Shown here: positions 19,579 through 32,480 of the stretch, one piece after another
How positions within the stretch are numbered: the stretch's first letter is position 1
How the letters are laid out: each line of letters begins with the position of its first letter
Origin: Alphaproteobacteria bacterium
Lineage (GTDB): Bacteria; Pseudomonadota; Alphaproteobacteria; Micropepsales; Micropepsaceae
Direction of reading: 5' to 3'
DNA length: 64,000 bases
NCBI GenBank assembly: GCA_947474565.1
Contig: CANJIS010000004.1
Location: 1-64,000 of the forward strand
Program-made: the position numbers and the translations under genes
Notes under the pieces: model-generated
What the model saw: only the letters and a program-made list of their open reading frames with translations
Told to the model about the DNA's origin: nothing
Database searches by the model: none

Positions 19579-20382
19579 TTGCCGAACCGCATTCCAGTCA
19601 TCATGGGAATTACCACGCTGCCCAGCCGCATTGCGCATATGCGACCCTGCCTGGAGTCCTTGCTGGACGGATTGCAGGTCCCCGATAAAATTTACATTTC
19701 CGCGCCGCAGGTCTCACTCCGCGAAAAAACGGGCTACGACATCCCGGCGTTTTTTCTTGAGTCGCGTTTCGCCGAAAAGATCGAAATCCTGCACCCGGAG
19801 CAGGATTTCGGCCCTGGCACCAAGCTTCTGGGCATGCTGGGCAAGATCACCGAGCCATCCTATGTCGTGATCGCCGATGACGATGTCCTCTATCGCCGTT
19901 TTTTCCTGCGCCGCCTGATCGAATATCAACGCACCGACCATCATGCGTCCTTCAGTTGGCACGTCTATTCCTTGGCGGGCCTGCGCGTTGGCCAGGGCGT
20001 GGACGGCTTCAGCTTCTGGTCGCCCAATCTTGAAGGCGTGTGGGATTTCTACGAAACCTATGTCGCCGGCACGGACCTGATGTTCCATGACGATCTGTGG
20101 ATTTCCTTTTTCCTGATGTCACGCGCCATACCTGTCCAGACTCTGCGCTTCCTGCTGGAGGAAGCCGGGCTGATCAATGTGCGCAGCGGCGAGGTGCACG
20201 ACATCAACGCGCTCCTTAATGAAACCGGAAACCTCTCGCGCCAGAAGCTGCACAGTCTGGTCTGTCCGCTCTTCGCCCGTGTGAACGTGGCAAAGGAAAT
20301 TTACGGGCCATTGCTTATAGGTAAGCCCGACGATCTGTGCATATGCGGCAGCGGCAAGCTTTTTGCGGACTGTCACGCCTGA
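19579..20382 (+). CDS. GT-A-like glycosyltransferase with C-terminal SEC-C zinc motif
   Basis: 267 residues. IPVIMGITTLPSRIAHMRPCLESLL opens a Rossmann-like sugar-nucleotide fold (seen as IPVIMGITTLPSR then CLESLLDGL). YVVIADDDVLYRR supplies a DDD/DxD metal site, and FHDDLWISFFL resembles the acceptor-side D/E-D motif of GT2-type enzymes. The tail CICGSGKLFADCH is a SEC-C zinc motif as in the protein at 330-1301. TTG at 19579 is preferred because AGGAAA lies 8 bases upstream; ATG at 19603 is the alternative. It stands alone between pabBC and convergent genes. Substrates unknown. Confidence 0.65.
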   Translation: MPNRIPVIMGITTLPSRIAHMRPCLESLLDGLQVPDKIYISAPQVSLREKTGYDIPAFFLESRFAEKIEILHPEQDFGPGTKLLGMLGKITEPSYVVIADDDVLYRRFFLRRLIEYQRTDHHASFSWHVYSLAGLRVGQGVDGFSFWSPNLEGVWDFYETYVAGTDLMFHDDLWISFFLMSRAIPVQTLRFLLEEAGLINVRSGEVHDINALLNETGNLSRQKLHSLVCPLFARVNVAKEIYGPLLIGKPDDLCICGSGKLFADCHA

Positions 20383-22262: not shown

Positions 22263-22393
22263 AAGGAAAGTCCCAGAAACTTGGCCCGAGTTTAGGCATC
22301 GGCCCGGCGCTTGTCTTGCCGCAAATGTACCAGAGCGCCAAGTGCCAAATGGCAAAGGGACGGTGCACCGCCGGAATCAGTCCTGCCTGTTTG

Positions 22394-22420
22394 AAAATGG
22401 CCCGCCGCAAGGCGGGCCAT
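22394..22420 (-). terminator. Intrinsic terminator after the small secreted His-rich protein gene
   Basis: A 10-bp perfect stem ATGGCCCGCC/GGCGGGCCAT with a GCAA loop is followed in the minus direction by TTTT. Confidence 0.7.
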
Positions 22421-22430
22421 CTGTTTTCGC

Positions 22431-22625
22431 TTAACGCCAGAAACAATGGCGGTGGCCGAAGCGATCAAAATGACAGACGCGATGGTGCAAGGCCTGATGG
22501 CGGTGATGATTGCGATAGCTAGGGCCGATGGTGATCCCGATCCCGATACCGGCAGCGGAAGCACTGACGATGGTCAGTGCGATCATGGTGGCGGCCAACG
22601 CCGAGCTGAAAAGATTGGTTTTCAT
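22431..22625 (-). CDS. Small secreted histidine-rich protein
   Basis: 64 residues: a clear Sec signal peptide (LFSSALAATMIALTIVSASA) and a mature part of about 38 residues rich in His and Arg (NHHRHQALHH, DRFGHRHCFWR). A GAAAGG Shine-Dalgarno precedes the ATG and a good terminator follows. It may bind metal in the periplasm. Family not recognised. Confidence 0.7.
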   Translation of the reverse strand: MKTNLFSSALAATMIALTIVSASAAGIGIGITIGPSYRNHHRHQALHHRVCHFDRFGHRHCFWR

Positions 22626-22837
22626 TTTTTTATCTTTCCTTTCTCGACGCCGTCATTGGGAAAAACGCCCGTCCTTCCCTTTTCGTTTCGCCAAGTTCCC
22701 TTGCCCGAAAACCGCCGCGAATTCGGCGAAATTGAGCCATCGCATCGGGATTGATGGTTAACCGTTACCTAATGAAAACCGCCCCGCGCAGCTTTGCATC
22801 TGCTAGCATCGCTTATCGCGGAGCCTGAGGAGAAAAC

Positions 22838-23446
22838 ATGTTCACACCTACAAAAATCGCTGCTGCTGTGATTGCCATCGCTGCGTTCGCAATTGTGCCG
22901 TCCGTCAGCGCGCGTGTGAACTGCCGTCCGAATGATGCCGCGTGCCGCGCCCTGCATGGTCCTTCGACTGCGATGGAGCGAGAACGCACCCGTAAGCTCA
23001 ATCGCGAAGCGTTGGAGGCCGGAACATCGGCGCCGGCGGTTCAGACCCAGAACAATTATCAAGGCGGCAATGGTTACGCGCGTGACCAGGAGATGTATCG
23101 CCGCGACCTGCGCGAATATCGCCAGGCTCAGCGCCGCTATGACCGGGCGATGCGCCGGGGCAATCGCCGTGGCGGCCCGTGCTTCACCAGCGCTGACCGC
23201 GAAGCCTGCCAGGCCATGGCCGCCGCCCCGCAGCGGCAGTATGGCCAGTCCTGGTCGGAGCAGGCCTATGTGCAGGACCATGAAGCCTTCGCTCCCACGG
23301 GCGGCAAGACGGACCCCAGCATTTCCGCGCCTACGTCACCGGGTCTGGCCGGCGCCGTCACGGGCTTGCCGGCTTACAATGCCGGGTCCAGCGGGCTTGC
23401 CCGCAACTGCCAGTCGGCCCCGCGCCAAAGGCCCCGCCGCCGCTGA
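22838..23446 (+). CDS. Secreted hypothetical protein, Arg/Gln/Tyr-rich
   Basis: 202 residues. Signal peptide at about 1-25 (IAAAVIAIAAFAIVPSVSA). The mature protein has four cysteines, two early (NCRPNDAACRALHG) and others near GGPCFTSADREACQAM, a charged middle with repeated YRRDLREYRQAQRRYDRAMRR-like residues (quoted DLREYRQAQRRYDRAM), and a disordered basic C-terminus (QRPRRR). A strong GAGGAGA Shine-Dalgarno precedes the ATG. Function unknown. Confidence 0.8.
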   Translation: MFTPTKIAAAVIAIAAFAIVPSVSARVNCRPNDAACRALHGPSTAMERERTRKLNREALEAGTSAPAVQTQNNYQGGNGYARDQEMYRRDLREYRQAQRRYDRAMRRGNRRGGPCFTSADREACQAMAAAPQRQYGQSWSEQAYVQDHEAFAPTGGKTDPSISAPTSPGLAGAVTGLPAYNAGSSGLARNCQSAPRQRPRRR

Positions 23447-23508
23447 GTTTACGGGCGTTCTACTAGGCCGCTTTCCTTCTGTTCCCGGGCGCGCTATCCG
23501 AAGCGCCC

Positions 23509-23928
23509 ATGGACATGCTGGGACTGCGTTTTCACCATTTTGGGCTGGCGGCCCGCGAGCCTGAAGCCGCCTGTATGGTTCTCAGGGCGCTGGGCTATCG
23601 CTGCGGGGATGAAATCTTCGATCCCGAGCAGAATGTGCGCCTGGTGATGTGCGATCATGACGCCATGCCCAGCGTGGAAGTGATCGCGCCTGGCCCCGAC
23701 GGCAAGACGCCGGTGGACCGGCTGGTGACCAAGCATGGCGGCGGCATCGTTTATCACCTCTGCTACACCACCAAGGATCTGGCCGGTACGCTGGCGGCAA
23801 TGGAAAAAGAAGGTCTGCACGCCACCTGTGTGGCGCCGCCCACGCCTGCGGTGCTGTTCGGCGGCGAGCGTGTCTCGTTCTATATGCTCGACGGCCTTGG
23901 CCTGATTGAAATCATCGAGGCCGCATGA
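23509..23928 (+). CDS. VOC-family (glyoxalase fold) protein
   Basis: 139 residues of one vicinal-oxygen-chelate domain: RFHHFGLAAREPEAACMVL with a metal-ligand His, VRLVMCDH, VEVIAPG with Glu, GIVYHLCYTTKDL with His, and LIEIIEA with Glu. The four ligands fit a divalent metal site, as in methylmalonyl-CoA epimerase or glyoxalase. It overlaps the methyltransferase by 4 bases and heads the VOC-methyltransferase-ACP-FkbH operon, so it may act on an acyl-ACP or acyl-CoA intermediate. Another ATG two codons in is also possible. Confidence 0.85.
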   Translation: MDMLGLRFHHFGLAAREPEAACMVLRALGYRCGDEIFDPEQNVRLVMCDHDAMPSVEVIAPGPDGKTPVDRLVTKHGGGIVYHLCYTTKDLAGTLAAMEKEGLHATCVAPPTPAVLFGGERVSFYMLDGLGLIEIIEAA

Positions 23929-24845
23929 GCTTGGCGCCCGCACAGTTTGCGCAATTGAACCGGTTGATCGACCTGCAGCTCGAGGTTTTCCCTGAGCATC
24001 GCGGCTTTCTCACAAAGCGATTCGCCGATAGCGATGCCGCGCATCTGGATTTCTGCGAACAGCTTTCCGGCAATGTCTTCAAGATCGCGGGCAGTGATAT
24101 CCGCCGCATCGTGGAAGATTATCGCTGGCTGTCGGACATGGTGCTGGAAGAAGAGTTGTTCTTCCGCCGTGAAGGGCGCTATCGGCTGTCGAAATTCTCC
24201 GACGCCCTGGAACAGGTCTATGCCAACACCCCGTTCATGGCCAAATACATGAACGGCCTTCTGGCCTCCCAGCTCTGGTGGCGCAATCACACCGAAGTGC
24301 TGCGCTATTTCCGCGATGGTTTCCTGCCCGGTAACAGGCAAGGCTTCACCCATCTGGAAGTGGGGCCGGGGCATGGATTGTTTCTAGGCCTGGCCGCCGC
24401 TGCGCCCAATGGCGCCAGCGCCGAAGGTTGGGACATCAGCGCCGCCAGTCTGGAAAATACCCGCGCTGCGCTGTCCGCCATGGGCGCGTCTGCCGGCATC
24501 GCGCTCAAGGAAGTGAATATTTTCACCGCGCCGGAAGGCCAATTTGATTCCATCACATTTTCCGAAGTGCTGGAGCATCTGGAAGAGCCTTTGGCCGCGT
24601 TGAAAATTCTGCGCGGCCTGCTGAAGCCCGGTGGCCGCATCTTCGTCAATGCCCCCGTCAATTCGCCCGCGCCCGACCATCTTTATCTGTTCCGCACCCC
24701 GGAAGAGGTGCGCGACATGGTGGCGGCGGCGGGGTTCGAGATCGTTGATACGTTATACGCCCCGCCCTCGGGCGCCGGCCTGGACAAGGCGCGGCGGCAG
24801 GAGCTCAGCATTTCGGCGGCGGTTATCGCCAAAAAATCCAGCTAG
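23925..24845 (+). CDS. Class I SAM-dependent methyltransferase
   Basis: 306 residues. The first 135 are helical and unrecognised (FPEHRGFLTKRF, YRWLSDMVLEEE). The rest is a Rossmann methyltransferase: motif I HLEVGPGHGLFLGLA, motif II WDISAASLENTRAAL, motif IV FDSITFSEVLEHLEEP and post-motif LLKPGGRIFVNAPVN. Placed between the VOC and ACP genes with a 4-base overlap upstream, it may O-methylate an ACP-bound hydroxyacid as FkbG does, or a sugar. The substrate cannot be read from the sequence. Confidence 0.85.
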   Translation: MSLAPAQFAQLNRLIDLQLEVFPEHRGFLTKRFADSDAAHLDFCEQLSGNVFKIAGSDIRRIVEDYRWLSDMVLEEELFFRREGRYRLSKFSDALEQVYANTPFMAKYMNGLLASQLWWRNHTEVLRYFRDGFLPGNRQGFTHLEVGPGHGLFLGLAAAAPNGASAEGWDISAASLENTRAALSAMGASAGIALKEVNIFTAPEGQFDSITFSEVLEHLEEPLAALKILRGLLKPGGRIFVNAPVNSPAPDHLYLFRTPEEVRDMVAAAGFEIVDTLYAPPSGAGLDKARRQELSISAAVIAKKSS

Positions 24846-24853
24846 GAAGCAGC

Positions 24854-25096
24854 ATGTCCACAATCGATAAAGTCACTGACATCATGCGCGATCTGTTCGA
24901 GGATTATTCCGGCCCGATCACGCCCGCCATCGCTGCCAAAGACGTGCCCGACTGGGACAGCCTGGCGCATGTGAAATTGATGGTGCAGGTGGAGCGCGCT
25001 TTCGGCATTCGCTTTGAAGCGCGTGAAGTCAGCCAGCCGCAGAATGTCGGCGAGCTGGTGGCGTTGATCGACCAGAAGCTGGCTGCCAAGGGATAA
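24854..25096 (+). CDS. Acyl carrier protein (dedicated)
   Basis: 80 residues with the phosphopantetheine site at Ser36 in PDWDSLAHVKLM and the four-helix ACP pattern. It is not the fatty-acid AcpP (which has DSLDTVE) but the type that pairs with FkbH. Its stop TAA directly abuts the ATG of the FkbH gene (TAAATG). It presumably carries a glyceryl or related short acyl group loaded by FkbH. Confidence 0.92.
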   Translation: MSTIDKVTDIMRDLFEDYSGPITPAIAAKDVPDWDSLAHVKLMVQVERAFGIRFEAREVSQPQNVGELVALIDQKLAAKG

Positions 25097-26971
25097 ATGA
25101 CCCACTCGGTTCGCGATCTGCCCTGGCTGGCGCCCGCACCGGACGATATCCGCGAGCGCATTCGCGCTGTGGCGAACAATTCCAGGCCCGGCGCGGATAT
25201 TCAGTTTCTCGCCTCGCATCGGCTGGAGCCGCAACTGGCGGCGAATCTGGGCAAGCAGATCGCCAAGGCCCGCAACGATCAGCGCCCGCTTTCGCCTTTG
25301 TCGGATTTCCAATTGGGCGTACTGGCCGGCGCCACCTTCGATCTGCTGGCCGAACAGATTCCCGCTGCCGCCGCCCGTCATGGCGTGGCGGCGGAACTGA
25401 TCCTGGCGGATTACGCCCAGGTGATGCAGGCGGCGATCGATCCCAATTCCTCCATCGCTCGTGCCAGGCCGGATGTGGTGCTGGTGGCGGTGGATCATCA
25501 TTGGTTGGGTCTGGATCACGATCTGGGTGATCCCGCGTCGCGGCTGTCCGCTGCGTTGGCACAGCTGCGGACCATCGTCGAAGGCATCCGGCGGAATGCG
25601 GGCGCACCGGCGATCCTGCAGACGGTGGCAACGCCACCCGGGTCTTTGTTCGGCAGTTTCGACCGCGCCCATTCCGGCAGTCTCCGCGCGCTGATTGACG
25701 CGTTCAACACCGGGCTGGCCGAACTGGCGCGCGAGAGCGGCAGTTATATTCTGGATGCCGCCTCACTGGCCGAGCGCATCGGCACCGATGCCTGGTTCGA
25801 TCCGGTGCAGCATTTTGCCTACAAGCTGCCATTCGCCGCCGAATGCGCCCCTGCCTATGCCGATCTTCTGGGCCGCCTGCTGGGCGCCATCCGCGGCAAG
25901 GCCCGCAAGTGCCTGGTGCTGGATCTCGATAACACGCTGTGGGGCGGCGTCATCGGTGATGACGGCATGGAAGGCATTGTCGTGGGGCAGGGCAATGCAG
26001 TGGGCGAGGCGCATCTGGCGCTTCAGCGTTATGCCAAAACCTTGCGCGCGCGCGGTGTCATTCTGGCGGTGTCGTCCAAGAATGAAGATGCGGCGGCGCG
26101 CCAGCCGTTCCGCGATCATCCCGACATACTGCTGTCCGAAAGCGACATCGCTGTCTTTCAGGCCAACTGGCTGGACAAGGCGTCCAACCTCGAGGCCATC
26201 GCCAAAACACTGAATATCGGGCTCGACGCCCTGGTTCTGCTCGATGACAACCCGGCCGAGCGGGCGCAGCTTCGCGCCGCGCTTCCCATGGTGGCGGTGC
26301 CGGAACTGCCCGCCGATCCCAGCTGGTTTGCTTGGTACCTGTCATCCGCCGGTTATTTCGAGGCGGTGAGTTTTTCTTCCGAAGATGCCGCCCGCTCGGC
26401 TTCCTATGCTGCCGATGCTGCGCGCGCCGATGTAAAGTCGTCTTCGCGCGATCTCGGCGATTATCTGTCCTCACTCCAGATGCGGCTCGCCTGCACGGCT
26501 TTCGACGGCGTGGGCCGTGCCCGCATTGCCCAGCTGATCAACAAGTCCAATCAGTTCAATCTCACCACCCGCCGCTACACCGAAGCAGAAATGGCCGCTC
26601 TGCCGCCGGATGTCTTCACCGCCCAGGTGCGCCTCTCCGACCGCTTCGGCGATCTGGGCATGATCGGGGTGTTGATCGCCCGTCCCCTCAGCCACAAGGG
26701 CGAATCCGCCTGGGATATCGATAGCTGGCTGATGAGCTGCCGGGTGCTGGGACGCCGGGTGGAAGAAGCCATGCTGGCGCATATCGCCGGGGCCGCGAAA
26801 GACGCGGGCATTCGCACACTTATTGGCCGCTATCTGCCCACGGCCAAAAATCCGATGGTGGCGGATCATTACACCAAGCTGGGTTTCACCGAGATCGCCA
26901 AGGACAGCAATGGCGCGTCTTATGCGCTGGACCTCGCGGATTACGCGCCGCCGCCGCTACCGTTTCTCTGA
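25097..26971 (+). CDS. FkbH-like protein (HAD-IIIC phosphatase with GNAT domain)
   Basis: 624 residues in three parts: an N-terminal SGNH-like region (about 35-255, LGVLAGATFDLL, DVVLVAVDHHWLG), a HAD-IIIC domain with catalytic Asp276/Asp278 in LVLDLDNTLWGGVIGDDG, then VSSKNED and LVLLDDNPAERAQ, and a C-terminal GNAT-like domain (FGDLGMIGVLI, SCRVLGRRVEEAML, NPMVADHYTKLGF). FkbH enzymes take 1,3-bisphosphoglycerate, remove phosphate and load glyceryl onto an ACP. The ACP gene is immediately upstream. Its 3' end overlaps the convergent SGNH gene by 15 bases. Confidence 0.92.
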   Translation: MTHSVRDLPWLAPAPDDIRERIRAVANNSRPGADIQFLASHRLEPQLAANLGKQIAKARNDQRPLSPLSDFQLGVLAGATFDLLAEQIPAAAARHGVAAELILADYAQVMQAAIDPNSSIARARPDVVLVAVDHHWLGLDHDLGDPASRLSAALAQLRTIVEGIRRNAGAPAILQTVATPPGSLFGSFDRAHSGSLRALIDAFNTGLAELARESGSYILDAASLAERIGTDAWFDPVQHFAYKLPFAAECAPAYADLLGRLLGAIRGKARKCLVLDLDNTLWGGVIGDDGMEGIVVGQGNAVGEAHLALQRYAKTLRARGVILAVSSKNEDAAARQPFRDHPDILLSESDIAVFQANWLDKASNLEAIAKTLNIGLDALVLLDDNPAERAQLRAALPMVAVPELPADPSWFAWYLSSAGYFEAVSFSSEDAARSASYAADAARADVKSSSRDLGDYLSSLQMRLACTAFDGVGRARIAQLINKSNQFNLTTRRYTEAEMAALPPDVFTAQVRLSDRFGDLGMIGVLIARPLSHKGESAWDIDSWLMSCRVLGRRVEEAMLAHIAGAAKDAGIRTLIGRYLPTAKNPMVADHYTKLGFTEIAKDSNGASYALDLADYAPPPLPFL

Positions 26972-28060
26972 GCGCCAGACTTTGTCTTCCTGAATCATCT
27001 GCCCGATACGGCTTTCCGCGAAGGGGTCGCCGGTCAGGTCCGCGTCTGACGCCAGGCCGCTTGTTCCAAGCATGATGCCGGTCAGCACCGTGCCGATGCG
27101 GGGCGTGAAATGCACCAGATCGATATAGTCCGGATAGACACCGCTGCTGTCCGGTTTTTCGCCGGTGATATTGTCCAACGTCATGAAATCGAACAGCGAG
27201 GCCTTGCCCCGGCAGGTCTGGTTATGGGCGCGCACATCTGCCAGCACCGCCAGCTTGAAATTGATCAGGCCTTCCGCGTCATTAGCGAAGTAACGGTCCA
27301 CCACCGCGAAATGCTCAGGCGGAAAAAACAGGTAAAGATGGATCGGTTTGCTGCACACCGCATCCAGCGCGCCCCGCAGCTGTTCCCGCTGCCAATCGCT
27401 CAGGCTGTAAGAGCGCCCCGCCCGGCGCTCCATGTCGCGGGCAAAGCTGGCTTTGGTCATATGGGAATAAGCACTGAAGATATCCGGCCGGTCCTTCGCG
27501 GTTTCGTTCCGCTTCAACCGCGCCAACATATAGAGCCCCGTGGCATGCATGCCGGTGGCGCCGCCGGAAAGATAGCGCGTGGTGAAAAGCCATAGCGGCC
27601 GCCGCGGTGTCGGCGTGCCGTCCGGCGTCACCGACAGGCGCAACTCGTCAAAGCCGCCGGTCGTGGGCTGGGCAATGCTGCCGCCGGCGAAGCTGTTGGC
27701 GCTGACGAAGATATTGCGCACCTGCGGCTGCGCGGCGGCGTCCTGCACCATCCGGCGCGTCTCATACGCCGTGACACTGGAAAAGCCGTAATTGAAGGCG
27801 TGAACATTATAGGTGCGGTTGATCAGAACCGGATCAAAGCCCTGGCGGATATCGCTGGTGCCGATGAACACCGCGTCAGGCTTGATGCTGTCCAGCCAGG
27901 CCGGCTTTAGCACCCGCTCAAAGCCGGACACGGTCTGAAAGCTTGGCCCCGCCGGGTGGGTGAGAATGTAGCGATCCGCCCAGGCGTTGAACCCGGCGAT
28001 GGCGATCACTGCCCCCGTCACCGTTGCCAGAAACCAGATGAGGTAGGTTTTCGCGCCCAT
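26957..28060 (-). CDS. AlgJ/AlgX-like membrane-anchored SGNH protein, partner of MBOAT
   Basis: 367 residues: an N-terminal membrane anchor (TYLIWFLATVTGAVIAIAGF) and a periplasmic domain with SGNH/alginate O-acetylase-type features (PDAVFIGTSDIRQGFDP with Ser, NYGFSSVTAYETRRMV, VSANSFAGG, DLVHFTPRIG with the catalytic-type His). It starts 2 bases after the MBOAT stop, so the two are one operon. In alginate and related systems such proteins complete or direct transfer of acyl groups delivered by MBOAT to exported polysaccharide. The start is ATG 28060. Confidence 0.8.
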   Translation of the reverse strand: MGAKTYLIWFLATVTGAVIAIAGFNAWADRYILTHPAGPSFQTVSGFERVLKPAWLDSIKPDAVFIGTSDIRQGFDPVLINRTYNVHAFNYGFSSVTAYETRRMVQDAAAQPQVRNIFVSANSFAGGSIAQPTTGGFDELRLSVTPDGTPTPRRPLWLFTTRYLSGGATGMHATGLYMLARLKRNETAKDRPDIFSAYSHMTKASFARDMERRAGRSYSLSDWQREQLRGALDAVCSKPIHLYLFFPPEHFAVVDRYFANDAEGLINFKLAVLADVRAHNQTCRGKASLFDFMTLDNITGEKPDSSGVYPDYIDLVHFTPRIGTVLTGIMLGTSGLASDADLTGDPFAESRIGQMIQEDKVWRSEKR

Positions 28061-28062
28061 GG

Positions 28063-29574
28063 TCAGAACTGAAAATAGATGAAGGGACTGAGATTGGAGA
28101 GGGCAAGCAACGCGGCGATGCAGACCAGCCCGAACAGCACCGCGCTTTGGCGGCTGGGCACCCAGGCGCAGCGGCCGATGTCCCGCACGGGAATGGCATT
28201 GGCCGCAGGCTCCAGCGCGGGGCGCATGCGCCAGGTAATTTCCATGCTGTTGGGCGCGGCCCAGGTCAGCAGAGCCAGGGTGACAAGAGCGGCCACCGCC
28301 AGATACGAGAAGGTGATCAGATTGGCGGCATGGTTCAGGCCCAGCATGCCTGTATAGATGCTGAGCACGGCCGGCAGGGTGCCGGCGCGAAACACCACAT
28401 CTGAAATCACCACCGCGAAGAAAGTCAGCGCCACTGCGGCAGCATGGGTGATGGGGCTCGGCGCGCTCTTTTTCTTTTTGCGCCACAACCGCCAGGCTTC
28501 GTTGATGGTGATGTAGAAGCCATGCATCAGCCCGAACACGGCGAAATTCCAGCCCGCACCGTGCCACAGCCCGATCAGCATGAACACGAACAGCAGGGGC
28601 AGGGCGCCGGAAAACAGAAAGCCGCTCCAGCGGCCCAGATCGAGAGCGATGGATTTGCGCGCCAGCATGATCGCCATCGGCGTGTAGAGATAATCGAAAA
28701 TGAATTTCTGCAGCGTGACGTGCCAGCGCCGCCAGAATTCGACAATGCTGGCCGCCTTGTAAGGCGAGTTGAAATTCAGCGGCAAGCGGATGCCGAACAG
28801 CAGCGATGAGCCCAGTGCCATGTCGGAATAGGCGGAGAAATCGAAATAGACCTGGAACACGAAAAACAAAGCGCCCAGCCAGGCATCGCTGGTGCCCACT
28901 GCGCCATGGGCGGCTGCGGAAAAGACAATGTCGCTATAGGGCGCCAGATTGTCGGCGATCAGCGTCTTCTTCGCCAGGCCGATGGTGAACAGGGTCGATC
29001 CAGTGGCGATGTCGCTGGCGCGGGCCTCATTGTCGCGTTCGGCATGAAATTGCGGGATCAGATCGTTGTGGCGAATGATCGGGCCCGCGATCAAATGCGG
29101 GAAGTAGGCAACGAACAGGGCGTAATCCAGCGGGGTGTAGCGCGGCGCCATGCCGGATGCGGCATCCGCCAGGTAGCTGATCTGCTCAAAGGTGAAAAAG
29201 GAAATCGCCAGCGGCAGGAAGATGGCGGGAATGGGCAGGTGCGATCCGGCCAGCAGATCGAATGTGCCCACCAGCATGGCGGCGTATTTGAAGAAACACA
29301 GCAAGCCCAGATTGAACGTCAGCCCCAGCACCAGGGGCGCGCGCGTGGAGCGCTGCTGCTCGCGGCGCGCCGTCAGTGCGCTGCCGATCAGGTAATTGAC
29401 GGCGGTTGAACCCACCAGCAGCACGAGGAAATCGGTGCGCCACCAGGCGTAGAAAAAATAGGACAGCAGCAAAAGAAAAGGCCGCCGCGCCGCCGGAAAT
29501 TTCTTTTCCAGCACCACATAAAACAGAACCGATAAAACGATGAAGGGAATGTAAGGGTAGGAATTAAACAGCAT
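28063..29574 (-). CDS. MBOAT-family O-acyltransferase (AlgI-like)
   Basis: 503 residues with about 11 membrane helices. N-terminal MLFNSYPYIPFIVLSVLFYV is typical of AlgI-type proteins (quoted MLFNSYPYIPFIVL). Active-site region: LPLNFNSPYKAASIVEFWRRWHVTL and the invariant His in LIGLWHGAGWNFAVFG. It moves an acyl group across the inner membrane to a surface glycan. Together with its SGNH partner it converges on the ACP-FkbH operon. Confidence 0.92.
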   Translation of the reverse strand: MLFNSYPYIPFIVLSVLFYVVLEKKFPAARRPFLLLLSYFFYAWWRTDFLVLLVGSTAVNYLIGSALTARREQQRSTRAPLVLGLTFNLGLLCFFKYAAMLVGTFDLLAGSHLPIPAIFLPLAISFFTFEQISYLADAASGMAPRYTPLDYALFVAYFPHLIAGPIIRHNDLIPQFHAERDNEARASDIATGSTLFTIGLAKKTLIADNLAPYSDIVFSAAAHGAVGTSDAWLGALFFVFQVYFDFSAYSDMALGSSLLFGIRLPLNFNSPYKAASIVEFWRRWHVTLQKFIFDYLYTPMAIMLARKSIALDLGRWSGFLFSGALPLLFVFMLIGLWHGAGWNFAVFGLMHGFYITINEAWRLWRKKKKSAPSPITHAAAVALTFFAVVISDVVFRAGTLPAVLSIYTGMLGLNHAANLITFSYLAVAALVTLALLTWAAPNSMEITWRMRPALEPAANAIPVRDIGRCAWVPSRQSAVLFGLVCIAALLALSNLSPFIYFQF

Positions 29575-29619
29575 GGTTTCGAGGCTTAAAGCGCCTCATT
29601 CCCGCTGTCCAGCGGCGCC

Positions 29620-30213
29620 CTATTTCTCGTCCGCCGCCAGCGACAAGCTTTGCTGCATGCGGGTGACCAGAGGGCTCCATCGCGAGGCATAGGCCGTCAC
29701 CGCGCCATCCTGGTCGTCAAAGGCATTGATGCAGACCAGTTGATAGAAGTTCTTTTTGCCGGCCACCACATGCATGGTCAGCACCCGGCCCGCCGCTTCC
29801 TGGCCCTCTTCGGTATAGGCGGTCAGGCAGGTGGCGCTGGGCAAGCCGTCGGTCTGACCGGCGACCGGGGTGCCACGCTGTTGCTTGCTGACGCCGGGCC
29901 CGGTCATCTTGCAGAAATCGCCCATGTCGCCCTTGGCCAGGCTCGACGCCAGGGTCTCTCGGGGCAGGTCGGTGGAATAGGGTGCGCGCTGCAACTGGCA
30001 ATTCAGGGTGCCGGGAGCACCGGCGCTGAGGCCGAACCCCATCATGACATCCTTGGGCGCGTCCGGGCCGGGCATGACGCGGCCGGCCACCATGGCCGGT
30101 ACGTCCATCGCGAAGCCGCCGCCCAGATCGATCTGGACCCAGGAAATTTCATCCTGCGCCAGCGCTTCGCCGGCAAGCAGCAATCCTGTCACGGCTAACA
30201 CAGCGGTTCGCAT
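29620..30213 (-). CDS. Secreted hypothetical protein
   Basis: 197 residues with a Sec signal peptide (TAVLAVTGLLLAGEALA). The mature part has several cysteines (LNCQLQR, DFCKMTG, ATCLTAY, LVCINAF) likely forming disulfides, and a C-terminal amphipathic stretch (WSPLVTRMQQSLSL). ATG at 30213 is chosen since GGAGAG lies 7 bases upstream. Family and function not recognised. Confidence 0.75.
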   Translation of the reverse strand: MRTAVLAVTGLLLAGEALAQDEISWVQIDLGGGFAMDVPAMVAGRVMPGPDAPKDVMMGFGLSAGAPGTLNCQLQRAPYSTDLPRETLASSLAKGDMGDFCKMTGPGVSKQQRGTPVAGQTDGLPSATCLTAYTEEGQEAAGRVLTMHVVAGKKNFYQLVCINAFDDQDGAVTAYASRWSPLVTRMQQSLSLAADEK

Positions 30214-30295
30214 GGCACTCTCCACGGGCGATGGCTGGTTTATCGCCTGGCCCCGGACTTGTCACGAACGGGCCCGGGTCCGATAAAGGCGCGGC

Positions 30296-31018
30296 ATGAA
30301 GAAAATTATGCTCAATTACGCGGACCGCAGGTTTTTGCAGTCGCAAAAGCTGAACGCACAGACCGGGCTTGGGATTGGCGGGTTCGATACCGCGATCACG
30401 CTCGGGCGGCAAAACCTGGACGCGGAATTTTGTGACCGCAATCAGTTTCTCCTCAGCCAGCCCCGGGGCGCCGGCTACTGGGTTTGGAAGCCCTATATTA
30501 TTCTCCAGACGCTGCGCCACGCGATGCAGGATGACGACGTGCTGTTCTACAGCGACAGCGGCGCTCACTTTCTGCAAAATGCCGGGCCTTATCTGGATGT
30601 TTGCCGGAGCAATCGCGAAAAGCCGGTGCTGCTGTTTTCGCTGGCCGCCAACATGATCAACCGCAATTGGACCAAGCGCGATTGTTTTCACTATATGGAT
30701 TTGGACAGGCCGCCTTACCTTGATCAGCCGCAGATATTGAGCGGTTACATCGTTTGTGGAAAAAACAGCTATACGATGGACTTCTTTGCCCAATGGCTGC
30801 GTTACGCCCAGGATGAGCGCCTGGTGACCGATATGCGAAATCAATGCGGGCTTCCCAACTATCCCGGCTTTGTCGCGCATCGCCACGATCAAAGCATTCT
30901 CAGCCTGCTGGGTAGAAGAGAAGACGTGACGGTGGCGGGCGATCCTTCCCAGTGGGGAAATGACTATCGCTCGTCCGAGTTGCCGCAGATAATCGCTTGC
31001 ACCAGAAACCCCGCTTAA
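30296..31018 (+). CDS. Putative glycosyltransferase (GYWVWKP family)
   Basis: 240 residues with no signal or membrane segment. The motif QPRGAGYWVWKPYIILQTL followed by VLFYSDSGAHF is typical of a family of polysaccharide-related glycosyltransferases; YSDSGA may supply a D-x-D-like metal site. Further on, HRHDQSILSLL resembles the D-Q-S/A motif near the acceptor site. A Shine-Dalgarno AAAGGCG precedes the ATG. It lies 13 bases before a GT10 fucosyltransferase gene, so both likely act on the same glycan. Confidence 0.65.
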   Translation: MKKIMLNYADRRFLQSQKLNAQTGLGIGGFDTAITLGRQNLDAEFCDRNQFLLSQPRGAGYWVWKPYIILQTLRHAMQDDDVLFYSDSGAHFLQNAGPYLDVCRSNREKPVLLFSLAANMINRNWTKRDCFHYMDLDRPPYLDQPQILSGYIVCGKNSYTMDFFAQWLRYAQDERLVTDMRNQCGLPNYPGFVAHRHDQSILSLLGRREDVTVAGDPSQWGNDYRSSELPQIIACTRNPA

Positions 31019-31031
31019 CGCGAGCCGGCTT

Positions 31032-31940
31032 ATGATCGTGGTTCAGAAACCGAAGCTTGTCGTCGGATTTGCCGATTCCTGGGGCGGAATGGACAAGTTC
31101 TTCATCAGCATCCTGTCCGAGCGTTACGAGGTCATCCGCAATGATGCCCAGCCGGATTATCTGTTTTTTTCCGATGAAATGTTCGGAACGTCAAACCGGC
31201 TCTATGACGGCAAGAAGAACGTCAAGATATTTTATACCGGCGAAAATGTCCGCCCCGATTCCAACCGGTTCAAATTCCATCGCGCGATTAGCTTCGATTA
31301 CATCGACGAAGATTGGCACTTCCGGCTGCCGCTCTATGTCATCGATTACTGGATGATGGTCCATATGCACGGCATGAAAACCATCGCAGATGTACAGCAG
31401 CGCCGGACGGGCGCCGGGAAAGATAAATTCTGCTGTTTTATTTCCGGCAATCCCGCCAGCAAAAAGCGCAACGATCTTTTCGCCGCGCTGAATGCTTACA
31501 AGAAAGTGGATGCGGCCGGCCCCCTGTTCAACAATATCGGCCATGTTCTGCCACGGGGGCTGGATGCGGCAAAAACCAAGGACGATTTCATGCAGGGCTA
31601 TAAGTTCAATCTATGCCCGGAAAATTCGTCCTACCCCGGGTACGTCACAGAAAAACTGTTCCACGCTTTTTATTCTGGAACGGTGCCCATCTATTGGGGT
31701 GATCCTTCCGCCAATTCCATTTTCAATTCCCGGGCGATGGTAAGCTGGCACGATTATCTCAGCGATGAGGCGCTGGTGCGCCGTGTCATGGAATTGGATG
31801 CCGATCCGGCCAAATATGCCGAGGTCATTTCGCAGCCCATCTTCAACAACGGCAACACCGACAAGCATATGGACCCGTCCAGGTTTCTGGACTGGTTCCG
31901 CGACCATGTGCATGGCGTGTTTGCAGCACGGTTGGGGTGA
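31032..31940 (+). CDS. GT10-family fucosyltransferase-like glycosyltransferase
   Basis: 302 residues. The C-terminal half has the GT10 signature: YKFNLCPENSSYPGYVTEKL, FHAFYSGTVPIYWGDPS and AMVSWHDY. This is the GDP-fucose-binding core of alpha-1,3/4-fucosyltransferases. The N-terminal half has KIFYTGENVRPD, also conserved in the family. The natural donor may be GDP-fucose or another GDP-sugar; no GDP-fucose synthesis genes are in the window. It is probably co-transcribed with the preceding gene. Confidence 0.85.
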   Translation: MIVVQKPKLVVGFADSWGGMDKFFISILSERYEVIRNDAQPDYLFFSDEMFGTSNRLYDGKKNVKIFYTGENVRPDSNRFKFHRAISFDYIDEDWHFRLPLYVIDYWMMVHMHGMKTIADVQQRRTGAGKDKFCCFISGNPASKKRNDLFAALNAYKKVDAAGPLFNNIGHVLPRGLDAAKTKDDFMQGYKFNLCPENSSYPGYVTEKLFHAFYSGTVPIYWGDPSANSIFNSRAMVSWHDYLSDEALVRRVMELDADPAKYAEVISQPIFNNGNTDKHMDPSRFLDWFRDHVHGVFAARLG

Positions 31941-31949
31941 AGCCGCCGG

Positions 31950-32144
31950 CTATTTGCGCGCGCGGGTCGCGGCCTTTTGGGCAACTATAAGAGCCTTCGC
32001 GTGCGCCTCGCTGGCCAAGATGTGCTTCTTGACCGCCGCGTCGTGTGCGGATGTTCCCTGGGCCATCTTCATTTCCCTATGCGCGGTCGCTCGCTCTGCT
32101 GCGCGCTTGTCCACTTCGATGTCTTCCGGGCTTTTATCGGTCAT
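31950..32144 (-). CDS. Small hypothetical protein, Ala/Lys-rich
   Basis: 64 residues, helical and charged (VDKRAAERATAHREMKMA, AKALIVAQKAATRARK), with no cysteine, signal or membrane segment. A strong GGAGGAAA Shine-Dalgarno supports translation. It is convergent with the fucosyltransferase gene. No family recognised. Confidence 0.6.
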   Translation of the reverse strand: MTDKSPEDIEVDKRAAERATAHREMKMAQGTSAHDAAVKKHILASEAHAKALIVAQKAATRARK

Positions 32145-32338
32145 TTCAATTTCCTCCAGCTTGGACAGACCCTATCGCGTTCACGGGGCGCTGTCTGTCG
32201 GCGACTGCAGCGATGCGAAATGGCGGGATAAGACTCTGCGTATGCGAGAAATGTTTGCTGCCCGCCTGCGCCCCTGCGCGCGCCGCGGTCGGCCTACGCT
32301 GACGCTCAGGCCGCGGATTCCCGCGGCGCAGCTACGGG

Positions 32339-32419
32339 CGCTTGGCTCCACCATTTTCGCCCGCGCGGAGCGTGAGGATAGGGCTGTGTGGGTGAAGGCG
32401 AAAATGGTGGAGCCAAGCG
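32339..32419. repeat. 23-bp inverted repeat of the tRNA-Ala 3' end
   Basis: The last bases of tRNA-Ala including CCA plus 9 bases of trailer (32397-32419, minus sense) recur as a perfect 23-base inverted copy at 32339-32361, separated by 35 bases. Both copies contain GGCTCCACCATTTTCGCC. In a minus-strand transcript the trailer would pair with the tRNA acceptor and T-arm 3' strand. No integrase gene is near. Confidence 0.85.
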
Positions 32420-32480
32420 GGATCGAACCGCTGACCTCCTGCATGCCATGCAGGCGCTCTCCCAGCTGAGCTATGGCCCC
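32405..32480 (-). tRNA. tRNA-Ala (anticodon GGC)
   Basis: 76 bases with encoded CCA. Acceptor stem GGGGCCA/TGGCTCC, D-arm AGCTCAGCTGGGAGAGC, anticodon stem CCTGC/GCAGG around loop ATGGCAT (anticodon GGC) and T-arm GGTTCGATCC. It decodes GCC and GCU. No upstream rRNA genes are present. Confidence 0.97.

Follow-up and report, generated by a model that had tools for sequence, protein, structure and literature searches.

Organization of the locus

The locus at positions 23,509 to 29,574 of the window, a 64,000-nucleotide stretch of contig CANJIS010000004.1 from an alphaproteobacterium of the family Micropepsaceae, raises the question of what an FkbH operon with its own acyl carrier protein (ACP) is doing beside a membrane acyltransferase pair. 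Our preferred answer is that the locus encodes a cell-envelope acylation system of the Dlt type with FkbH in the place of DltA, a reading to which we assign a probability of roughly 0.7.

The six genes proposed by the first-pass annotation were confirmed by open reading frames, checked with an independent gene caller, and by domain matches, the SGNH protein lacking a family match. On the forward strand, a VOC protein (23509..23928), a class I SAM methyltransferase (MT) with a helical N-terminal domain (23925..24845), a dedicated ACP (24854..25096) and FkbH (25097..26971) form one operon, in which the VOC stop and the MT start overlap as ATGA and the ACP stop abuts the FkbH start in TAAATG. The MT start may be either 23925 or 23964, the gene caller having chosen the later one. 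On the reverse strand, an MBOAT protein of the DltB/AlgI superfamily (28063..29574) is followed after 2 nt by the start of an SGNH-like partner with an N-terminal membrane helix (26957..28060). This pair lies tail to tail with the operon, and the 3' ends of FkbH and SGNH overlap by 15 bp (26957-26971); the ACP-FkbH abutment and the head-on arrangement described in the first-pass annotation are therefore both correct.

Donor-side enzymes

The window FkbH matched TIGR01686 at 276 bits (cut-off 146.65) and FkbH_N at 45.9 bits (cut-off 27), with 3slr as its PDB relative (E 3.8e-93, A2 profile). Residues D276, D278 and C548, the last of which we take to be the catalytic cysteine, were invariant in seven aligned sequences, and the protein is predicted to be a 1,3-bisphosphoglycerate-dependent glyceryl-ACP synthase. 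A Pfam search found no AMP-binding domain of the DltA type in the six genes, FkbH being there instead. The ACP matched PF00550 at 23.3 bits (cut-off 20.8) and carries Ser36 within DWDSL, and W34, D35 and S36 were invariant in 17 aligned sequences.

The MT (PF13489, 61.7 bits) gave a model with a pLDDT of 96.6, and Foldseek with this model returned general methyltransferases only, at a TM of about 0.5. It is a candidate O-methyltransferase of glyceryl-ACP, and we infer the O-methylation from the presence of the MT only. The VOC protein is methylmalonyl-CoA-epimerase-like (PF13669, 54.5 bits), scored 34 bits against TIGR03081, under the equivalog cut-off of 114.95, and had 3hdp and 2qh0 as its nearest PDB sequences, with 1jc4 as a weak match. 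Its four metal-type residues, H10, E57, H83 and E134, were invariant in 15 aligned sequences, and we regard the protein as a candidate for epimerising, at C2, the acyl group bound to the carrier. No pathway dehydrogenases were found in the FkbH operon.

A polyketide or non-ribosomal peptide client of the ACP was searched for in the same genome and none was found, in agreement with the first-pass annotation: there is no condensation domain and no PKS-like ketoacyl synthase set, the ketoacyl synthases, counted by match only, amounting to two strong matches (frames of 442 and 406 aa) and one weak partial match. A second FkbH of the genome (L003, 8110-10161) was also considered and set aside, as it has no adjoining ACP and shares 27% identity with the window FkbH.

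Co-occurrence of the gene set across genomes

A scan baited with the MT yielded 57 genome loci, with FkbH near the MT in 49, ACP in 51, MBOAT in 40 and all three in 36. Since the MT served as the bait, its constancy in these loci carries no independent weight, and the counts lean to FkbH-linked MTs because two of the three bait MTs were originally found beside FkbH. After near-copies were collapsed and bait-derived loci removed, the values were 41/48 for FkbH, 43/48 for ACP and 32/48 for MBOAT. FkbH was missing from 8/57 loci and MBOAT from 17/57, and some stretches end at contig ends; the full-length stretches included one without FkbH (L113), seven without MBOAT (L091, L093, L097, L102, L105, L124 and L126) and one with neither (L141). 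The MT profile weakly matched 316 of 385 additional genomes of the class (E 0.001), so that new loci were accepted only above 200 bits, and three of the five new MT loci obtained in this way contain FkbH, ACP and MBOAT; G141, G103 and the weaker G305 have neither FkbH nor MBOAT. A tblastn search of plasmids with the MT returned two records. Altogether, the association of these genes is more than chance, and related sets occur in many, distant bacteria. Conservation of the six genes as a set, the check suggested in the first-pass annotation, holds for MT, ACP, FkbH and MBOAT and does not hold for the VOC, which is optional, or for the SGNH partners, which fall into several families.

These loci also bear on the identity of the acyl group. 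The VOC was present in 27/57 MT loci and a MaoC-like dehydratase in 15/57, never both, an alternation suggesting that the products may differ. Moreover, FkbH-ACP-MBOAT sets without MT exist (L054-L056 and L186-L189), two of them with VOC (L186 and L187). Another three-carbon acyl group, such as plain D- or L-glyceryl, pyruvyl or methoxyacryloyl, could thus be transferred, or the MT could methylate the acceptor instead. We consider this comparatively unlikely, given that published proposals for suomilide and methoxymalonyl-ACP, in the parts consulted, place FkbH together with an O-methyltransferase acting on the carrier-bound glycerate or its oxidised form (PMC13122637, PMC7489565).

A variable genomic spot

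All six genes lie within one variable spot (22263-32404) bordered by a tRNA-Ala(GGC) gene on the reverse strand (32405..32480). The same tRNA-Ala(GGC) was present in the stretches of all seven relatives scanned, and none of the six genes was found at the corresponding spot in the eight relatives compared. The genome, whose assembly is 99.84% complete, gave one MBOAT match and contains three AT3 acyltransferases, which, like its second FkbH, weigh against the favored reading. The glycosyltransferases at 30296-31940 share only the variable spot with the six genes, and the GYWVWKP and GT10 genes have a lower GC content (0.549 and 0.523).

The MBOAT donor segment

The window MBOAT (PF03062, 96.2 bits) had DltB as its best PDB match (E 2.1e-28), scored 166 bits against the DltB equivalog TIGR04091, under the cut-off of 375, and carries the histidine motifs WRRWH and GLWHG. 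Its C-terminus, FIYFQF (28066..28083, reverse strand, with Tyr500), fits the acyl-shuttle motif FXYXXF described in PMC12148441, as far as the excerpt consulted goes. This motif was found at 36 of the 40 MBOAT loci of the MT-baited scan; in nine of these 36 it sits in a separate, DltX-like short ORF adjoining a motif-less MBOAT. It had no match elsewhere in the 1.04 Mb screened.

A second motif, GG[NS], is located between the catalytic histidines. When the 55 MBOAT loci retrieved by searching with the window MBOAT were cross-tabulated, FkbH or ACP being counted as a neighbour within 1.5 kb, the motif was absent from all eight MBOATs near FkbH or ACP and present in 45 of the 47 others (Fisher 3.7e-8). 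It was likewise absent from all 40 MBOATs of the MT loci and from DltB, a carrier-protein user. MBOATs with the motif presumably use acyl-CoA, judging from their missing carrier genes, and GG[NS] is presumably a feature of PatA and AlgI themselves. The window MBOAT lacks the motif, whereas all 16 genus orthologs have it. The difference extends over a donor-side segment (residues 281-345; 28540..28734, reverse strand) delimited by sliding identity, the motif cross-table and a segment tree: mean identity to the genus orthologs was 25-32% over residues 281-340 versus 65-80% over residues 101-300, and residues 281-340 are nearer to MBOATs of MT/FkbH loci. The segment tree (85 columns, 5/48 inner branches starred) was incompatible with the scaffold tree, in which the window MBOAT groups with carrier-less MBOATs. 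From its sequence, therefore, the window MBOAT looks like a mosaic of a genus-type scaffold and an FkbH-linked-type donor segment. The contacts of DltB to DltC map to this segment, according to the part of PMC11035591 consulted. The earlier description of the protein as AlgI-like fits the scaffold, but the donor side resembles DltB more than it resembles the carrier-less relatives.

The pair could instead be an ordinary O-acetyltransferase fed by acyl-CoA (PatA/PatB- or AlgI/AlgJ-like), with the neighbouring FkbH operon making something unrelated. In favor of this, the pair is convergent with the operon and outside it, and all 16 close orthologs of the pair within the genus have no FkbH nearby or elsewhere in their assemblies, which indicates that the ancestral donor of the pair was probably something else. 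Nonetheless, we regard it as quite improbable, since the window donor segment departs from these very orthologs toward the MBOATs of MT/FkbH loci, GG[NS] is missing as in every FkbH- or ACP-adjacent MBOAT, FkbH, ACP and MBOAT are neighbours in most MT loci, and the six genes share one variable spot that is without them in the relatives. The expected co-occurrence of the operon and the pair was thus observed in many distant bacteria but not in the genus, although the genus orthologs carry a different donor segment.

SGNH partner and acceptor

The SGNH-like protein had no match in Pfam, NCBIfam or PDB sequences, and its predicted role is that of DltD, AlgJ or PatB. Its AlphaFold model was poor (pLDDT 55.6); the top matches of a fold search with this model were nearly all SGNH hydrolases, the best at E 4.8e-3 and none at E 0.001. 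Among eight SGNH partners from other loci, seven were without a Pfam match and one had a sub-cut-off GDSL match. In HHalign comparisons, a single further family of partners could be linked to that of the window (95%), the remaining families tried giving 0.2-48%, and S69, D314, H317 and two cysteines were invariant between the window protein and eight partners of that one family.

Regarding the acceptor, a lipid, peptidoglycan, a protein or a small exported metabolite might be modified rather than a surface polysaccharide, an option that we find doubtful. Orthologous pairs adjoin mlaE/F/D-like genes in four loci (L038, L039, L041 and L042, with Pfam run on L042), and suomilide clusters apply an MBOAT to a small molecule (PMC13122637, in the part consulted). 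On the other hand, the flanks of MT loci lean weakly to sugar-nucleotide and glycosyltransferase families, including Epimerase (6), GT2 (6), GDP_Man_Dehyd (5) and RmlD (4) among 145 scanned, with overlapping counts, and known MBOAT-SGNH pairs acylate envelope polymers according to the excerpt of PMC12148441.

Proposed pathway and implications

In the Dlt-like system that we favor, FkbH would load the phosphopantetheine of the ACP with a glyceryl group taken from 1,3-bisphosphoglycerate, as expected from its family, after which the MT may O-methylate the carrier-bound acyl group and the VOC would probably epimerise it at C2. The donor-segment evidence suggests that the ACP would then dock on the MBOAT as DltC does on DltB, and the acyl group would be passed to Tyr500 of the MBOAT itself on the periplasmic side. 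By analogy with PatB and DltD, the SGNH protein would take it from the tyrosine and esterify an acceptor outside the cytoplasm, for which a surface glycan is the likeliest candidate. In the glyceryl-type decoration first proposed for this locus, it is the donor half that gains support, from gene co-occurrence and from the carrier-linked type of the MBOAT donor segment.

More broadly, we would give even odds to MBOAT-SGNH systems fed by a carrier protein forming a second, widespread class, one that runs on a glycolytic acyl phosphate by way of FkbH instead of on ATP-dependent adenylation, and in which the part of the MBOAT that docks the donor is an exchangeable module and a carrier-less, presumably acyl-CoA-type MBOAT can be switched to a carrier-protein donor by segment replacement, as in the window. 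In the part consulted of a 2025 paper, MBOAT-SGNH pathways other than Dlt are without a similar carrier protein (PMC12148441); a widespread FkbH-fed class, if true, would change this view and tie glycolysis directly to envelope decoration. The presence or absence of GG[NS] would then be a sequence rule predicting CoA versus carrier-protein donors, which the mosaic MBOAT makes directly testable. Such a class would also point to genes that may place glycerate-type groups on the glycans of bacteria, for example the rare glyceroyl groups on Bacteroidota O-glycans, for which the timing of addition is unknown according to the excerpt of PMC12871550.

Comparison with known systems

Among the matches listed in the open-licence PMC literature, no FkbH-MBOAT decoration system was found, and FkbH and MBOAT appear together in aeruginosin/suomilide papers. 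The FkbH pathways to polyketides and peptides (methoxymalonyl-ACP, tetronates, suomilide) share with the window an FkbH with a stand-alone ACP or PCP and the O-methylation of a carrier-bound unit, but the window genome has no NRPS or PKS-like set, its operon has no dehydrogenases, and a membrane acyltransferase pair is present instead.

Gellan carries glyceryl groups, a case for which the literature search gave unrelated papers only. The dimethylglycerate of Campylobacter jejuni pseudaminic acid resembles, by description, the predicted product, being a methylated glycerate on a surface glycan, and it is missing from one strain in which cj1302 (fkbH domain) is a pseudogene and from another that has no cj1301 (annotated epimerase), a two-strain correlation; the excerpt consulted describes no MBOAT-SGNH step (PMC7099621).

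With PatA/PatB and AlgI/AlgJ, the window shares a two-protein transfer machinery, a fused C-terminal motif and a scaffold that clusters with carrier-less MBOATs, whereas those systems use acyl-CoA without a carrier protein (PMC12148441, in the part consulted) and the window has an ACP in the operon adjoining the pair and another donor segment in its MBOAT. The likeness to Dlt comprises a dedicated carrier protein, an MBOAT with a donor segment without GG[NS], an SGNH-like partner and the FXYXXF shuttle, which in some relatives of the window set is a separate DltX-like short ORF. Unlike Dlt, the window has FkbH rather than the adenylating DltA, so that glycerate rather than D-alanine is probably transferred, adds tailoring by an MT and a VOC (or MaoC) enzyme, and has its shuttle fused to the MBOAT.

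Conservation and composition of the gene set

The set comprises a four-gene VOC-MT-ACP-FkbH operon on the forward strand (23509-26971) and a two-gene MBOAT-SGNH operon on the reverse strand (29574-26957), and the overlap of their 3' ends, already read in the first-pass annotation, was measured at 15 bp. Among seven aligned relatives, FkbH retains the HAD-motif (DxDNTxWGG) residues D276 and D278 together with the cysteine C548; WDS36 of the ACP is kept among 17 aligned sequences and the four metal-type residues of VOC among 15, while MBOAT contains both histidine motifs and terminates in FIYFQF. Judged from sequence, the identities of the genes other than SGNH appear secure, and that of the SGNH partner is tentative.

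Scanning of genome contigs with an alignment of three methyltransferases (the window MT and those of two previously recovered FkbH-bearing loci) returned 57 loci, which belong to Alphaproteobacteria and other Proteobacteria (Magnetococcales among them) and to Acidobacteriota, Myxococcota, Nitrospinota, Bdellovibrionota and Planctomycetota. Using profiles built in this analysis and a reach of at most 10 kb, FkbH was detected in 49/57 loci, ACP in 51/57 and MBOAT in 40/57, with FkbH and ACP together in 49/57. Since L090 is one bait locus over again and the Tistrella locus L114 is close to another bait, the loci were collapsed by single linkage where MTs shared 75% identity, and L090, the L081/L114 pair and the window itself were removed; the 48 remaining loci included 41 with FkbH, 43 with ACP, 32 with MBOAT and 29 with all three. 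For comparison of scale, the window FkbH as query had matches in just 16 of 147 relatives' genomes, its own included. In a further draw of 385 genomes of the class, eight had MT matches above 200 bits, three of them already represented (G000, the window's own genome, G121 and G346). Among the five new loci, whose contigs differ in length from all of the 57, FkbH, ACP and MBOAT were all nearby in G226, G455 and G224, only ACP and MaoC in G141, and none of the three genes was found nearby in G103; a weaker match, in G305, had ACP only. The sequences thus point to a conserved association, and the earlier reading of the six genes as one set stands in part: FkbH, ACP and MBOAT accompany MT in 36/57 loci, but 16 MBOAT-SGNH orthologs of the source organism's genus occur without FkbH.

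A VOC gene of one of two kinds lies near MT in 27/57 loci and a MaoC-like dehydratase gene in 15/57 (PF01575 confirmed MaoC in the single member scanned), never both at the thresholds used and neither in 15/57. The hypergeometric chance of this exclusion, ignoring kinship, is 7e-6 for the 57 loci and 6e-5 for the 48 collapsed loci (25 VOC, 11 MaoC-like, none with both). The MT tree requires 16 changes of the VOC/MaoC label against a shuffled mean of 25.3, and places the VOC-bearing window as sister to the MaoC-bearing Brevundimonas locus L088 (support 99/96). VOC and MaoC-like proteins are alternatives for one slot, although their product need not be identical. Two loci carry tandem MT genes (L116, 8991-10912; L137, 9938-11862), which could fit a doubly methylated acyl group.

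Four FkbH-ACP-MBOAT sets lacking MT (L054, L055, L056 and L057; ACP detected by profile in three and by tblastn in the fourth) are another tailoring variant. All four have genes for an FMN-dependent dehydrogenase and a PIG-L deacetylase, and three have a long gene, the L054 copy being an AMP-binding/ACP/acyltransferase-3 fusion.

The donor side of MBOAT

The MBOATs nearest to that of the window come from 16 genus members, each also with an SGNH partner. FkbH, ACP, MT and VOC were not found near these MBOATs in stretches of 6.5-19 kb, and FkbH had no match in the 16 whole genomes. The pairs are located elsewhere than in the window: ten lie between ssb-gyrA and either uvrA or an FkbM methyltransferase gene, four next to genes resembling mlaEFD, and two in other or cut contexts. 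In the four (L038, L039, L041 and L042), the neighbours encode MlaE, an ABC ATPase, MlaD and an auxiliary lipoprotein (Pfam, L042 copies), which suggests a lipid link.

Mean identity of the window MBOAT to the 16 orthologs is 65-80% over residues 101-300 (40-residue windows) and 25-32% at residues 281-340. Over the latter stretch the top-scoring MBOATs from MT/FkbH loci are 47-50% identical to it, and 57% slightly downstream. This donor segment (residues 281-345) lies between the catalytic histidines, and its counterpart in DltB, by our alignment, holds residues that the available text of PMC11035591 describes as contacting DltC. GGNR occurs here in 16/16 genus orthologs and is absent from the window MBOAT and from all 38 MBOATs of MT or FkbH loci, a set from which five near-duplicates and MBOATs below 200 bits were dropped and in which L107 and L125 have neither FkbH nor ACP in reach. 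Among the 55 best-matching loci of two window-MBOAT searches, GG[NS] was missing in 8/8 MBOATs with FkbH or ACP within 1.5 kb and present in 45/47 without (exceptions: L149, unscorable, and L163, with GGG); the Fisher value of 3.7e-8 overstates independence because the 16 genus orthologs are counted within the 45. The motif was also missing in 40/40 scored MBOATs of MT loci. By sequence, the donor segment is correlated with FkbH/ACP.

Two trees built from one selection of 51 MBOATs indicate a mosaic. With the segment excluded (378 aa), the window MBOAT groups inside the genus clade that lacks FkbH (SH-aLRT 99), and MBOATs from MT/FkbH/ACP loci are spread over the tree, with 8 changes. In the donor-segment tree (85 aa), all 22 rows from MT/FkbH/ACP loci and the window are split from all 28 GG rows (support 99), and the window groups with L116, L137, L125 and L135 (support 87); L125, one of the 22, has MT and VOC, and its 20.9 kb contain neither FkbH nor ACP. 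Recombination is the likely origin of this pattern but is not proven, because the 85-aa tree rests on few columns, with branches that are long (5/48 inner branches starred); strong selection on the donor segment is the alternative. Under recombination or selection alike, the MBOAT donor side differs where FkbH is present.

In PatA and DltX, the available text of PMC12148441 describes the acyl group as relayed via the tyrosine of a C-terminal FXYXXF motif. All six frames of the 57 MT loci (1.04 Mb) were screened for ORFs in which a hydrophobic stretch is followed by a terminal [FIVLY]xYxx[FY]; each of the 36 that resulted lies in the frame of an MBOAT or no more than 120 bp from an MBOAT match. 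The motif is fused to MBOAT in 27/36 and on a separate ORF in 9/36; the latter are DltX-like short ORFs with predicted starts beside motif-less MBOATs (L100, L107, L109, L119-L123 and L140), such as those ending FXYXXF at L121 12148-12276 and L122 12150-12296. L134 has a near-match, and the screen found no motif in L104, L112 (split MBOAT) and L113.

Genomic context

The order ptsN, DUF1150, hsp20, pabB, TAT, GMC, tRNA-Ala, acidic protein, aroA, cmk is largely kept in the genus (names assigned by eye, GMC by Pfam). The window has about 10 kb, all six genes included, between the GMC oxidoreductase gene and tRNA-Ala(GGC) (22263-32404). None of the six was found at this spot in the stretches of eight relatives, seven of which span both sides and have there SDR- or ArsR-like genes, small ORFs of other kinds, or nothing at all; the set therefore occupies a variable spot adjoining a tRNA gene. 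Genes for a GYWVWKP protein and GT10 (30296-31940; GC 0.549 and 0.523) have GC and GC3 below their neighbours, and thus may be a later arrival at this variable spot. Separately, an ORF at 19579-20382 carries a C-terminal SEC-C motif, with no further Pfam match at E 0.01, and its remainder looked glycosyltransferase-like by eye.

The genome's own assembly (2.18 Mb, 99.84% complete) encodes one MBOAT and two FkbH proteins. No NRPS condensation domain was found in it, and its ketoacyl synthases comprise two strong matches, with 442- and 406-aa frames whose size suits stand-alone fatty-acid enzymes, and one weak partial match. A polyketide FkbH pathway was rejected as the identity of the window set. 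The second FkbH (L003 8110-10161, contig C3 of G000) has no adjoining ACP, is flanked by urate-oxidase-N-like and phytoene-synthase-like genes, and has relatives in G004 and G008 at 52% and 64% identity.

Comparison with known systems

Of the 158 proteins of 90-650 aa encoded in the flanks of the MT loci, 145 were scanned, and they lean weakly to families of sugar-nucleotide enzymes and glycosyltransferases; this range leaves out proteins >650 aa and is uninformative on PKS or NRPS there. Glyceryl groups occur on native gellan. In the window set, a glyceryl group would be loaded, methylated and epimerised, and the carrier would dock. Compared by chemistry and gene annotation, the nearest chemical parallel is the dimethylglycerate on Campylobacter jejuni flagellin sugars. 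The available text of PMC7099621 reports this modification as not seen in strain 12664, where cj1302 (fkbH domain) is a pseudogene, nor in strain 12661, without cj1301 (annotated epimerase), and that of PMC3068675 reports that it requires cj1295. FkbH with an O-methyltransferase acting on a carrier-bound unit is proposed, in the portions available, for suomilide (PMC13122637) and, after two oxidations, for methoxymalonyl-ACP (PMC7489565).

A Dlt system was rejected as the identity of the window set because DltA is absent and the DltB model cut-off was unreached. By anatomy the set nevertheless resembles Dlt, with a predicted carrier-bound acyl group, an MBOAT, a predicted acyl-tyrosine and an SGNH partner, and the loci with a separate shuttle ORF match the Dlt parts list of carrier, MBOAT, microprotein and SGNH-like partner.
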